A stretch of DNA of 62,343 bases, taken from Melioribacteraceae bacterium (GTDB lineage: Bacteria > Bacteroidota > Ignavibacteria > Ignavibacteriales > Melioribacteraceae). Both the position numbers and the translations under genes were made by a program. The stretch lies in assembly GCA_015493615.1 (NCBI GenBank), contig WGCV01000060.1, positions 1 to 62,343 of the forward strand. The letters are read 5' to 3'. Shown here piece by piece: positions 55,563 to 62,204 of this stretch (position 1 is the stretch's first letter; each line of letters starts with the position of its first letter). A model generated the notes under the pieces. It was not told the origin of the DNA and searched no databases. It worked only from the letters and a program-made list of their open reading frames with translations.

Positions 55563-56603
55563 ATGAAAAAACTTAATATATATTTACTCGCGTTCCTGAT
55601 GTTATCGGGAACAATTTTCGGCGCCAACAAGCTGAATGTTGTAACAACTCTTACAACTTATGCAAATATTGCTAAATATATCGGAAAGGATAAAATCACC
55701 GTCGCATCAATAGTAGCGGGCGATCAGGACGCCCACTTTGTTCGCCCTAAACCGAGTTACGCTGTACTTTTAAGCAAAGCGGATGTTTTTGTTTCAACCG
55801 GATTGGACCTTGAACTTTGGGTGCCGACGCTTGTTGATATGTCGAAAAACGACAAAATCCGTTCGGGACAAATCGGCTTTGTAGCCGCTTCCGACGGAAT
55901 AAAACTCCTTGAAAAACCTTCCGTGCTTTCCCGAAGCGAAGGAGGACTGCACATTTACGGCAATCCGCACATAACTACAAATCCCCTTAACTACAAAATT
56001 ATTGCGGAGAATATTGAAATCGGGCTTGAGAAAAATGATCCGGAAAATGCCGGATTTTACGAAGCCAATTTAAAAGAATTTAAACACATGATTGATGTAC
56101 ATACTTTCGGCGAAAAGCTGGTTGCATTGATGGGAGGAAAACTATTGACGAAGCTCGCCAACAACGGCAATTTAATTGATTTCCTCCGCTCTCATAATTA
56201 TCAGGGAAAGAAGATGATTGATTTTCTCGGCGGCTGGTTGAAGGAAGGGATGCCGTTTCGCGGACGAAAGGTTGTTGCGTATCATAAAAACTGGGTTTAC
56301 TTCAAGGAGTTGTTCGGTATTGAAATTATCGGGAATGTTGAGCCGAAGCCGGGTATTCCGCCTTCTCCGAAACATGTTGAGGAACTTGTATCCGAGATGC
56401 GTAAGAATAATGTAAAAGTTGTTTTGGCGGCAAACTATTTCGATGAAAAGAAAGTAACCGATATCTGCAACAAGGTCGGGGCGGTCCCGGTAATAGTTCC
56501 AATCTATGTTAACGGCGCGCCCGGCACGGAAGATGTTTTCAAATTGGTTAATCTTTGGATTACAAAACTGAACGAAGCTTTTAAAATTGCAGATCAAAAA
56601 TAA
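55563..56603 (+). CDS. metal ABC transporter substrate-binding protein (ZnuA-like)
   Basis: A 346-residue periplasmic cluster A-I binding protein. Signal peptide to IFG, then LNVVTTLTTYANIAKYIG. Candidate metal ligands: His in DAHFVRPKPS, His in GNPHITTNP, His in AYHKNWVYF, and an acidic residue near NYFDEK. It lacks the long His-rich loop of typical ZnuA, so zinc versus manganese is not settled. Start at 55557 or 55563 (two ATGs); TTAAGAG upstream. The stop is followed by an R1 copy. Confidence 0.85.
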   Translation: MKKLNIYLLAFLMLSGTIFGANKLNVVTTLTTYANIAKYIGKDKITVASIVAGDQDAHFVRPKPSYAVLLSKADVFVSTGLDLELWVPTLVDMSKNDKIRSGQIGFVAASDGIKLLEKPSVLSRSEGGLHIYGNPHITTNPLNYKIIAENIEIGLEKNDPENAGFYEANLKEFKHMIDVHTFGEKLVALMGGKLLTKLANNGNLIDFLRSHNYQGKKMIDFLGGWLKEGMPFRGRKVVAYHKNWVYFKELFGIEIIGNVEPKPGIPPSPKHVEELVSEMRKNNVKVVLAANYFDEKKVTDICNKVGAVPVIVPIYVNGAPGTEDVFKLVNLWITKLNEAFKIADQK

Positions 56604-56610
56604 TTTAGTA

Positions 56611-56766
56611 GGGACCTTTGCAAAACCTAAAATTGTCATATTGAGGACGGTGAGAGCCGTCCGAAATATCTCTGAATTCGGTATAATTACCGGTTTTGAG
56701 ATTCTTCTCCCGCTCCGCCTTGGCGGAGGATCAGAATGACAAATTTCGGGGTTATGCAAAGCCTTC
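56611..56766. repeat. R1 MITE-like repeat, copy 7 (complete)
   Basis: A 156-bp element with ends GGGACCTTTGCAAAACC and GGTTATGCAAAGCCTTC, flanked by TAGTA (56606-56610 and 56767-56771). It starts 3 bp after the binding-protein stop and ends shortly before the permease ATG, so it splits the metal-transport operon. Confidence 0.92.
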
Positions 56767-59812: not shown

Positions 59813-59934
59813 AAATAGTTACCTGCAAAAGATTAATCAAAATCGTGTAAAGCCAAAATACCGGCTGCAAGAGTATAAAACGATAAGTCGGCATCCCAAA
59901 TTTAAGGATTTTCTTCTTCATTGGCATACGCAAA

Positions 59935-59995
59935 ACTTGAAACGCAAGACGTAAAACGCAAGACGAAAGACGTAAGACGCCAGACGAGAAACGTG
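59935..59995. repeat. AAGACGC short tandem repeat
   Basis: Repeated AAGACG(C/T)AA units (GCAAGACGTAAAACGCAAGA) directly before an R1 copy; same type as the tract at 20753-20800. Confidence 0.6.
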
Positions 59996-60010
59996 TTATA
60001 TAAAGTATTA

Positions 60011-60159
60011 GAGACCTTTGCAAAACCTAAAATTGTCATATTGAGGACGGTGGGAGCCGTCCGAAATATCTCTAAATTCGGCACTATTACCGGTTTTGAG
60101 ATTCTTCTCCCGCCAAGGCGGGATCAGAATGACAAATTTCGGGGTTAAGCAAAGCCTTC
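60011..60159. repeat. R1 MITE-like repeat, copy 9 (complete)
   Basis: A 149-bp element with ends GAGACCTTTGCAAAACC and GGTTAAGCAAAGCCTTC, flanked by TATTA (60006-60010 and 60160-60164). Best reference copy of the family. The stretch from here to 60620 holds no convincing gene. Confidence 0.92.
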
Positions 60160-60622
60160 TATTATTTATTAGCGTATTCTTTTAGAATGTTAGAGGTTAG
60201 AAAGGGCGCAGGACGGATTATCCTGTTATCCGGCGTGTTTTGTTATTCTGAGTTGAGCCGATAAACGATACGGAGAATCTCTTATAAAAATTTAAGCAAT
60301 TCTAATTCTTTTTGCAGAGAGAAAACGTTCATCGTTTAAATTTCAGAAAAACCGAAAAAGTTAATTTCATTAGAATCCGCTTGATTAAACATTGAAAATT
60401 CTCTAATTTACTTCACAAATTTGAGGATTTTATTGCGCGTCTCCGAATTAAAATATTTTGAAACCGAAAGCTTTCTGACGAATGTGAAAAATCAGAGTAA
60501 ATCACTTAATCCTTTTTCACTTACGGCAGATGTTTTATTACAAAACAAAATATTTGGTCTCCAACAACTAAGAACACCAAAAGTAGATTTATCAAGATTA
60601 CTTAACGAATATACGAACTTAT

Positions 60623-60680
60623 ATCTAACATATATTCCCGATAAACGCAATGCGTGTATTGGGAATGTTGTGGTGCATAA
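60623..60680 (+). other. attC-like imperfect palindrome (upstream)
   Basis: Stem ATTCCC-G-ATA-A-ACGC (60634-60648) pairs with GCGT-G-TAT-T-GGGAAT (60652-60666) over a 3-nt loop, with one mismatch and one G-T wobble. Outer boxes are TAAC on the left and GTTGTGGTGCATAA on the right. The right box matches the end of the palindrome at 62.2 kb (GTTGTGCATAA). Read as a short attC site. An integrase is not visible. Confidence 0.45.
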
Positions 60681-60706
60681 AAGAGACTAAAATAAAAAGA
60701 TAAATT

Positions 60707-61375
60707 ATGAAATTAAGATTTGGAAATGCCTTAATGGCAGACTTTGCCAAACCCCAGCAATCTGGCAAAATTGATGCGATAGGAATCTTTACAAGATTCA
60801 ATGCATGGGGGTATCCATGTGTTCGAAACTGGACTTTAATCTTTACAATTTATGATGTACCTAAAAATGGAATAAATATTCATATCGGTTTAAAAAGAAA
60901 ATCAAGTAAATCATTAATTACCCTTAAGACTATTGATTTAAAAGGTAGCTCTAAACCTAATAGTCATACTATTCCTATTTCGTTAAATTATAAATTCGAA
61001 AAACCCGGTGATTATACAATTATATGTTCAATAAAAGATTTTAGCAATAAATTGCGAATTCCATTTAATATTTCAACATTAGATTGGCCGACATTCACAA
61101 AAGATGATATTGATATAGTAAATAAGTTCAAAAAACAAATTCCATATCGCTTAACAGCACAAGTAAACTGTAGTGTTTGTGGCCATGCATATATATTTGA
61201 GGAATCTATTTTAAAAGATGAAGAGACGCAAGGAGGAACAATAAGGTTTCCTGAAAATGGGGTATTTGAATGTACAGAATGTGGCCATGAAATGAACCTT
61301 AAAGATATACAAGGACAATTGAGGGCTTCTTTAAAAGATAATCTAACTTTATTAAAAAGAATGCGTAATGTTTAG
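60707..61375 (+). CDS. beta-domain protein (DUF6941-like) with C-terminal zinc ribbon
   Basis: A 222-residue protein. Residues 8-125 resemble, from memory, the DUF6941 family (LMADFAKPQQSGKIDAIGIF, RFNAWGYPCVRNWTLIF), a beta-rich domain of unknown function. Residues 155-192 form a zinc ribbon: Cys155-x2-Cys158 and Cys189-x2-Cys192, each pair followed by Gly-His. Markedly AT-rich, A/T-ending codons, unlike the neighbours, which suggests transfer. Overlaps the next gene by 8 bp. Possible sensor or antitoxin partner of the HEPN-like protein (inference). Confidence 0.72.
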   Translation: MKLRFGNALMADFAKPQQSGKIDAIGIFTRFNAWGYPCVRNWTLIFTIYDVPKNGINIHIGLKRKSSKSLITLKTIDLKGSSKPNSHTIPISLNYKFEKPGDYTIICSIKDFSNKLRIPFNISTLDWPTFTKDDIDIVNKFKKQIPYRLTAQVNCSVCGHAYIFEESILKDEETQGGTIRFPENGVFECTECGHEMNLKDIQGQLRASLKDNLTLLKRMRNV

Positions 61376-62063
61376 TCCATATCACAGATTAAATAATTGT
61401 CGAAAACTTGAACGCTGGATTGATAATAATCAATCAAGAGTAACTAATGTTGTTCAAAAAGGCCATGATAGATATCATTATGCATTATTACATAAATTAA
61501 AAAGTGCCCATTTTCATCTTGAAAACTTACATGATATTTTAGTGAACACGGATGCCTCAACTGTTCTTCCTAATTCGGAAGACTTTTTACAAAAAGTTAA
61601 TATGCATATAGATAGTTTTTTCTATTCATGTGGTAGCTCATTAGATATATTAGCTAGAGAAATTTTAGTTTATTTTGATATTCCAATAACAGGTAATGTA
61701 TACTTTCACACTGCATATAATAGCATAAATCGTTCGAGACCCCACGATACCATCCTTACAAAAATATCTGATCCTACTTGGAAACAAGAATTTTCTGACT
61801 ATCGTAATGCTTTAACCCATGAAGTTTTGATTGCTGGGAATTTCTCAATTCAGTTTAATGCAACAGGGCGTAATCATCAAAAGACAATAGTATTTCCATT
61901 ACCAGATGACCCTAGGACAGACATTGAAAATAGAACATTTAGACGAAACAGTGACGCATTAACATACTGTAAAACTACATTTACAAGAATATTATCATTG
62001 ATAAATCAAATTTATGGGGAAATTGAAGAAAGAGCAAGATTAAATAATCGTTTACCATTATAG
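61368..62063 (+). CDS. HEPN-like protein with R-X4-H motif
   Basis: A 231-residue, mainly helical protein. The motif Arg146-Asn-Ala-Leu-Thr-His151, preceded by a long helix with IDSFFYSCGSSLDILAREIL (residues about 85-105), is the pattern of HEPN proteins (Cthe_2314/abortive-infection-like groups), many of which are RNases in toxin-antitoxin, Abi or CRISPR-linked systems. Catalysis is not proven by motif alone. Coupled to the zinc-ribbon gene; the two sit between attC-like palindromes. Confidence 0.68.
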   Translation: MFSPYHRLNNCRKLERWIDNNQSRVTNVVQKGHDRYHYALLHKLKSAHFHLENLHDILVNTDASTVLPNSEDFLQKVNMHIDSFFYSCGSSLDILAREILVYFDIPITGNVYFHTAYNSINRSRPHDTILTKISDPTWKQEFSDYRNALTHEVLIAGNFSIQFNATGRNHQKTIVFPLPDDPRTDIENRTFRRNSDALTYCKTTFTRILSLINQIYGEIEERARLNNRLPL

Positions 62064-62068
62064 ATTAC

Positions 62069-62204
62069 GCACCACAACAATGTATAAGCGTAATGCGGGG
62101 TTAAGTGCTTAATATGAATGAATTAACTATCAATATAATTCGGTGTAAATTAAAAGTGAAGTGCTTCAAAAACCCGCACTACGCTTATACTCACCGTTGT
62201 GCAT
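62069..62204 (+). other. attC-like imperfect palindrome (downstream)
   Basis: Starts 6 bp after the HEPN-like gene. Outer box CACAAC (62073-62078) pairs with GTTGTG (62196-62201). The arm GTATAAGCGTA (62082-62092) pairs with TACGCTTATAC (62180-62190), and TGCGGG (62094-62099) with CCCGCA (62173-62178). The 70-bp centre is AT-rich and unpaired. Two conserved arms around a variable centre, ending in GTTGTGC, is the layout of an integron attC site. Nothing else is recognised in 62205-62343. Confidence 0.62.

Follow-up and report, generated by a model that had tools for sequence, protein, structure and literature searches.

HEPN toxins encoded together with upstream partners, HEPN proteins carried in integron cassettes and integrons acting as stores of defence genes are all already known. 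HEPN proteins are defined by an Rx4-6H motif at the end of helix 3, with a polar residue after the arginine, and many of their families have a second acidic-x3-[KR] motif, Ex3[KR] (PMC3710099). One HEPN family (PDB 3jrt) is listed as belonging to a mobile integron element in Gammaproteobacteria, with no partner named in that entry (PMC3710099, table 1), and integrons are described as storing cassettes directed against phages (Darracq et al. and Kieffer et al., as cited in PMC12409362). Here we describe a pair of genes, A and B, near the right-hand end of a 62,343 nucleotide (nt) stretch of DNA from a Melioribacteraceae bacterium; this stretch, called the window below, is the entire contig C60 of genome G000 (3.15 Mb, 67 contigs, 96.8% complete). 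Gene A encodes a DUF6941 protein with a zinc ribbon and gene B a HEPN-like protein. We read the pair, with a probability of a little under 0.6, as a mobile two-gene abortive-defence cassette in which B would be a HEPN RNase effector and A its regulator or sensor. Coordinates are collected in Table 1.

Integron crossover points (G|TT) lie at 60668 and 62196, and what they enclose is, to the base, one integron-type cassette (TT...G) made of the two genes and an attC site. The genes overlap by 8 bp, as the first-pass annotation had it, and its remark that they are AT-rich compared with the surrounding genes was also right: the cassette has a G+C content of 0.309, where stretches of the same size across the contig average 0.405 (lowest elsewhere, 0.318), and G+C at third codon positions is 0.20 in A and 0.18 in B, against 0.33-0.47 in six other window genes. 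The unit had been placed exactly between two attC-like palindromes. The exactness held and the right-hand palindrome is an attC, but the left-hand one is an attI-like site; we discarded it as an attC because it resembles recombinase-proximal sites and the attC covariance model gives no match there. It is identical over 44 nt to L026:6394-6437 on another contig of the same genome, C53, where the copy is flanked on one side by a divergent tyrosine recombinase gene and on the other by a further gene. Insertion at G|TT can be read from two endpoints: the match to the C53 site runs out at the core GTT, and the copies of the leader that precedes the site diverge directly after it.

The attC has the AAC...GTT ends, the arms foldable as a stem and the R'/R'' pairing of its own that mark an integron cassette. 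Its covariance-model match covers 62072-62202 (131 nt, 137.8 bits), the site being one of the three seeds of the model. On the three-site alignment (the window and two sites on C53), which served for the covariation test and on which the structure was drawn by hand, all 19 of the 19 stem pairs are kept, six of them with two-sided compensatory change, a pairing equalled in none of 500 shuffles. R'' is complementary, with one mismatch in 14, to the R' of the left boundary (60667-60680), as it should be if the attC is rebuilt when the cassette is excised as a circle. Over the 11 G000 cassettes with both ends readable (C65, C10 and the attC at the end of C21 were excluded, the cassette end being unreadable or off the contig), a cassette's own R' and R'' agreed at 54 of 77 positions, against a permuted mean of 28.4, and this total was matched or beaten in 2 of 200,000 random permutations. 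Agreement was 7/7 in five of them, namely C53-2 and the first cassettes behind four attI-like sites (window, C53-1, C55 and C45), and 5, 5, 4, 3, 1 and 1 of 7 in the remaining six. The contig ends 147 nt past the cassette. From 62193 onwards it shares its final 151 nt, without a difference, with the end of C53; this common stretch begins three bases ahead of the core GTT, as if one unit followed both cassettes.

The product of gene B (231 aa) carries the motif R146-N-A-L-T-H151, in which R146, N147, T150 and H151 are invariant in the four sequences aligned (4/4), and a second motif, D93-x3-R97, equally invariant, with D in place of the typical E. B has, then, both an Rx4-6H with a polar residue after the arginine and a second acidic-x3-[KR] motif. 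Its structure model (mean predicted local distance difference test score, pLDDT, 71.8) is a bundle of long helices; R146 is the last residue of helix 136-146 and H151 is in the loop that follows, as the placement of the HEPN motif requires, with the helix end as the part that places it, residues 146-195 being below pLDDT 50. When the model was compared with Foldseek, the first five rows were HEPN/MNT toxin-antitoxin chains of 129-132 residues (E from 0.68), which we take to be the HEPN subunits, and the first VIA rows were the HEPN proteins 4nqf (Z 9.5, 137 aligned, 3.9 Å) and sacsin (Z 9.2, 126 aligned, 2.9 Å). In searches of PDB sequences, neither B (E<=1) nor its profile (E<=10) matched a HEPN chain; a profile match to topoisomerase I (E 0.01) was put down to coiled-coil similarity.

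The HEPN-like reading of B in the first-pass annotation, made from Arg146-x4-His151, stands as regards the invariant motif and the tendency of the fold, with HEPN structures ranked first for what is indeed a helical bundle, but the fold scores are modest and no family profile matches. These last two points would also suit some other helical-bundle protein, in which R-N-x3-H would not be an active site; we consider this very unlikely, given that the motif is invariant in all four sequences despite their divergence, stands at the expected position of the fold and is accompanied by D-x3-R, and that HEPN entries come first in both structure comparisons. On the motif, its position and the fold comparison, B very probably belongs to the HEPN superfamily, and motif and fold together suggest that it would be an endoribonuclease; in this superfamily the fold is a four-helix bundle built from two alpha-hairpins and the RNase activity is metal-independent.

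Both assignments made for the product of gene A (222 aa) were confirmed. Residues 8-122 match DUF6941 (PF22091) with 37.4 bits against a gathering cut-off of 27, and the four cysteines of the zinc ribbon, C155-x2-C158 and C189-x2-C192, are invariant in 4/4. The model (mean pLDDT 81, residues 12-26 below 50) consists of a beta-sandwich up to about residue 125, zinc-ribbon strands at 148-197 and a helix at 199-219. The sandwich has many look-alikes among immunoglobulin-like domains (the best VIA row is Wzt, at Z 10.8 with 103 aligned and 2.6 Å), a likeness that says little about function. In the alignment of four, 26 residues are invariant in the C-terminal 97 and 15 in the N-terminal 125, as would be expected if the C-terminal half offered a constant surface to a partner and the sandwich were a changing sensor. 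No helix-turn-helix family was matched in A with Pfam, and none of its 19 Pfam rows at E<=1 is a nucleotidyltransferase family, which a HEPN-MNT pair would have. Residues 155-211 show a weak similarity to MqsA antitoxins (E 0.027; 14.3 bits, the family cut-off being 61.8), and a profile match of A to HypA (E 0.027) was put down to zinc-ribbon similarity.

The two genes occur together. A collection of species genomes was scanned with B alone, by a search that needs short exact peptides and so misses distant relatives, and relatives of B were found in metagenome-assembled genomes of a Bacteroidetes (L035, 58% identity), a Flavobacterium (L036, 58%) and a Dehalococcoidia (L037, 44%). Every one of them adjoins a relative of A, which lies directly upstream in four genomes out of four, the window included. 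The junctions are an 8-bp overlap in the window and in L036, a 4-nt gap in L035 and a 1-nt gap in L037, and across the four pairs identity is about 44-59% for B and goes down to 33% for A. The conserved two-gene unit that had been proposed, and that homologues never occurring together would have contradicted, is thus what we observe. When samples of 58, 395 and 349 genomes were searched, every match outside the query genomes was rejected as noise: those in G008 and G204 (E 7e-4 and 9e-4) are antisense to other open reading frames (ORFs), with three stop codons in G008, and the one in G505 (E 6e-4; apart from it, only the query genome was matched among the 349) lies inside a 934-codon frame. 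Plasmids gave no match to A or to B at E<=1e-3. For B, a limit of E<=10 brought up plasmid records at E 2 and E 7 and a single phage record at E 4; these were rejected, as were four plasmid records at E 2-7 for A. Neither protein had a match in viral contigs, whether protein searches or alignments were used.

Zinc ribbons often bind nucleic acid, which lends some appeal to a different role, an RNA-processing or stress-regulation pair in which the ribbon of A would guide the HEPN-fold protein B to particular transcripts with no abortive function. A role in stress has indeed been proposed for the HEPN proteins of integron cassettes (PMC3710099). The rare, patchy and mobile distribution of B, matched in 2 of 395 genomes of the phylum (G000 and one match rejected as noise), and the company of defence cassettes described below speak against such a role, which we regard as distinctly unlikely.

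Upstream of the attI-like site the window has a leader that recurs, attI included, at two other loci of G000, on C45 (86% over 341 nt) and on C55 (82% over 325 nt), as found by a blastn search covering the retrieved G000 stretches. The similarity extends through the attI-like site and stops at its GTT, and the first cassette behind differs, being a Fic protein on C45 and a PDC-M15A pair on C55. C53 has only the final 64 nt of the leader in common (92%). An 89-aa ORF at 60421-60690 was ruled out as a gene: in its frame the copies differ about equally often at each codon position (23/26/26), and the leader therefore appears to be non-coding. Leaders of about 330 nt ending at attI can be delimited at 60345-60669 in the window, at L118:4560-4900 (-) and at L115:1765-2087, with no recombinase gene at any of the three, and a decayed recombinase, searched for to the left of the attI at the window locus, was not found. 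A SNORD25 match (E 0.41, below gathering) was dismissed. Farther upstream, the intergenic stretches 56587-56739 and 59921-60148 have ORF translations that look alike by eye and perhaps represent an interspersed repeat.

From the crossover point to the start of A there are only 39 nt, and a scan for sites of the sigma-70 type found 10 promoter-like sites against a mean of 12.2 in shuffles, so that a promoter of the cassette's own is not evident; both observations fit expression from the upstream leader. A pair seemingly dependent on an upstream promoter suits addiction poorly, and this bears on the main rival explanation, a plain stabilising toxin-antitoxin cassette in which B would be the toxin and A a zinc-ribbon antitoxin, persisting by addiction with no role against phages. 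The partner-first gene order is that of toxin-antitoxin dyads, MNT-HEPN among them (PMC3710099), the sub-threshold likeness of A to MqsA points the same way and another G000 cassette carries an AbiEi/AbiEii pair; against these stand the missing promoter signal, the lack of a helix-turn-helix match in A and the defence-rich neighbours. We regard a plain toxin-antitoxin cassette as unlikely. The earlier proposal of an undescribed defence or toxin-antitoxin pair remains sound as to the two-gene unit and the defence company, but nothing observed here separates a toxin-antitoxin pair from phage-triggered abortive infection.

For abortive defence we propose the following scheme. Read from the first position behind the attI-like site, the cassette would supply A first, and B, which would be toxic or growth-arresting when active, would probably be translationally coupled to it. 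The conserved zinc-ribbon and C-terminal part of A would keep B inactive and sensing would probably fall to the more variable DUF6941 beta-sandwich. Either a product of the phage or some change that accompanies infection may then free B, which would cut RNA and abort the infection. That B is under the control of A and released on infection is suggested by the invariant active-site motif, by A being first and tightly adjacent, by the greater conservation of its C-terminal half and by the defence-rich company.

This company is seen in two places. In L036 the pair directly precedes PD-T7-3 (E 1.4e-124), an experimentally found anti-phage system (PMC9519451), and PDC-S54 (E 1.4e-103). It follows there a AACGCAATGCG...GTTGTG site like the attI of the window (local score 35, when 95% of 400 random stretches reach 17 or less); compared with the same attI, the right-hand boundary of the L036 pair scores 17, i.e. 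the random 95% level, and nothing attI-like was seen at L035 and L037 (score 14). AAC...GTT inverted sites can be read by eye after PD-T7-3/PDC-S54, with none called by the attC model, and the pair of L036 may be a cassette as well. Seen by eye, the stretch L036:6928-9528, with PD-T7-3 and PDC-S54 behind the pair, is apparently an array with a different attC type. In G000 itself, 8 of the 12 other readable cassettes carry PADLOC families (E<=1e-5) against 1 of 10 other window genes (Fisher p 0.011), a count that compares cassettes with single genes, includes candidate (PDC) families and omits ORFs <65 aa, the 10 genes having been hand-picked along the contig from 29 ORFs and their one match being weak (1.5e-8). 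One further G000 attC, whose cassette is off the contig, stands outside the 12. Among the matched cassettes (Table 1) is one with DUF3644, itself a HEPN family (PMC3710099). Cassette carriage and defence-like surroundings, both claimed at first sight, are accordingly well founded in the attI-like and attC ends, the L036 neighbours and the G000 cassettes. Another cassette, L114:178-2300 on C21 of G000, holds two similar 67-aa ORFs, a 322-aa protein, which by eye resembles ATP-grasp proteins and has no match in Pfam, and one of 257 aa; it may encode a peptide-modifying system.

Several observations weigh against the abortive-defence reading, in addition to the mixed make-up of the cassette count just given. 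The active-site side of B is poorly modelled, its best Z of 9.5 is within the range that VIA calls common for helical bundles, and gp41 constructs and designed bundles appear at Z 8.0-8.7 within the first eight VIA rows. Foldseek returned nothing for B at E<=0.001. B is matched by no family of Pfam, PADLOC, NCBIfam or PHROGs, and A by none of PADLOC. The pair is known from four genomes only. The attC model finds no site in L035, L036 or L037; of the neighbours scanned, which were those of L035 and L036, the three of L035 gave no PADLOC match, and the recombinase gene nearest the L036 pair is an arm-domain phage-type integrase, not one of the C53 type.

Integron-type recombination would be what mobilises the cassette, and the enzyme is probably the C53 recombinase working in trans, since the attI-like site is common to both loci. 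This tyrosine recombinase (297 aa, L026:5506-6399) matches the integron-integrase family in two pieces (111 and 99 bits) below the cut-off of 265, and Xer-like genes of control genomes match that family likewise. Aligned with IntI1, it has the C-terminal SPxDxL stretch in common and is without about 44 residues of IntI1; the IntI-specific domain is described as a mark of IntI and as required for integron recombination (PMC9668308). No protein over the TIGR02249 cut-off, i.e. no IntI in the strict sense, was found in G000 (96.8% complete), nor was an integron integrase over the family cut-off found in the genomes of L035, L036 and L037. In a tree of 16 rows, with L102 left out and IntI1 as the sole true IntI, the C53 recombinase, seven relatives and IntI1 split from seven Xer-type rows (100/100); IntI1 and own_C25 form long branches, which makes the position of IntI1 among the recombinases uncertain, and we therefore use the tree for the split from Xer alone. 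Eight of the 15 recombinase loci, among them C53, show by eye a similar palindrome ending in GTT just upstream; at the other 7 none is visible.

The covariance model built on three attC sites finds 14 sites in G000, three being the seeds, and sites (E<=0.01) in 25 of 58 genomes, G000 included, in places as arrays; this last count used stricter filters and misses some, for example one site in G029. Dense attC arrays were noticed in a relative, G019, on contigs C306, C324 and C286. A C53-type recombinase is present in 18 of the 58 genomes, again with G000 (15 long copies, 3 fragments). Matches to attC occur in 14 of these 18 genomes versus 11 of the 40 without it (Fisher p 0.0005) or, counting long copies only, in 11/15 versus 14/43 (p 0.014), the related genomes in these tests not being independent. 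Four of the 18 have the recombinase without a counted attC, and 11 genomes have attC without such a recombinase. Recombinase and attC share a contig, at most 7.5 kb apart, in ten cases read by hand and at two further loci.

More tentatively, and with somewhat less than an even chance of being right, we suggest an undescribed dispersed integron-like system, in which the C53 relative of IntI, without the IntI-specific domain, would serve in trans several expression sites spread over the chromosome. Each of these, a leader of about 330 nt with its attI and no recombinase gene, would take up attC cassettes, and the load would largely be small defence systems, this pair among them. The available parts of PMC9024848, PMC9668308 and PMC2426708 contain no description of an integron-type recombinase without that domain or of such systems in Bacteroidetes. 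If the suggestion is correct, integron searches that demand the IntI-specific domain (PMC9668308) would file such systems as integrase-less cassette clusters, and their contents would be a source of defence genes.

Table 1. Features of the window and of the other readable G000 cassettes mentioned in the text. PADLOC entries refer to E<=1e-5.
Feature	Coordinates	Strand	Basis or detail
Leader, apparently non-coding; recurs at two other G000 loci without recombinase gene	60345..60625	+	blastn, alignment
attI-like recombination site, palindrome between AAC and GTT	60626..60669	+	44-nt identity to C53 site
Integron-type cassette, two genes and attC	60668..62196	+	boundaries, R'/R'' complementarity, low G+C
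Gene A: DUF6941 beta-sandwich, four-Cys zinc ribbon, C-terminal helix	60707..61375	+	Pfam, alignment of 4, model, fold comparison
Gene B: HEPN-like protein, proposed RNase effector	61368..62063	+	alignment of 4, model, fold comparison
attC of cassette	62065..62202	+	R'' 62065-62078, stem 62082-62099 / 62173-62190, core GTT 62196-62198
Start of next unit, cut by contig end	62197..62343	+	end of contig C53 identical
CBASS cyclase and Cap15 effector, two genes	L114:2494-4066 (G000:C21)		PADLOC match
DUF1016/YhcG nuclease PDC-S02 (two cassettes)			PADLOC match
AbiEi/AbiEii pair	L117:523-2219 (G000:C65)		PADLOC match
DUF3644 (PDC-S19) and HARE-HTH partner, then Fic gene	L116:1890-3790 (G000:C50)		PADLOC match
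PDC-M15A; SoFic; PDC-S01			PADLOC match
C53-1: PDDEXK_13/REase-ARP and TPR			no PADLOC match
C53-2: AAA_5 ATPase and DUF7192, candidate system	L026:8076-10179		no PADLOC match at 1e-5
C21-a; C10 (partial attC match only)			no PADLOC match

Among described systems, HEPN-MNT (HepT-MntA) is like our pair in having two genes, the partner upstream and a HEPN protein with Rx4H, and it supplies the top Foldseek rows for B. The pair differs in that its partner is a DUF6941 protein with a zinc ribbon, with no nucleotidyltransferase family matched, and in that B has a stretch of about 50 low-confidence residues after the motif. In the PDB, the match of A to HI0073, an MNT protein, was no better than chance (E 0.58). 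Like the zinc-ribbon antitoxins of the MqsA type, A has two CxxC pairs and is the partner of a presumed RNase toxin; unlike them, it matches their family below threshold and no helix-turn-helix family was matched in it, and MqsR is an unrelated toxin. As for DUF6941 (PF22091) elsewhere, A differs by the added zinc ribbon and helix and by its HEPN partner: the three other DUF6941 loci in 296 genomes of the phylum have frames of 139-162 aa, with no HEPN partner seen by eye within 1.5 kb.

The family of PDB 3jrt shares with B the carriage of a HEPN protein in an integron cassette. A pair of HEPN and DUF6941 is not named in the available part of PMC12409362, and the literature searched, as far as it was available, neither describes a HEPN partner made of DUF6941 and a zinc ribbon nor mentions DUF6941. 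Defence-storing integrons resemble the present locus in their attC cassettes with small defence systems; here, in contrast, the C53 recombinase is without the IntI insertion, and attI is also found at recombinase-less loci behind a shared leader. If the abortive-defence reading is true, the pair would bring a type of partner not linked to any function in the literature searched and would add to the known systems a small two-gene RNase defence module already packaged for transfer.

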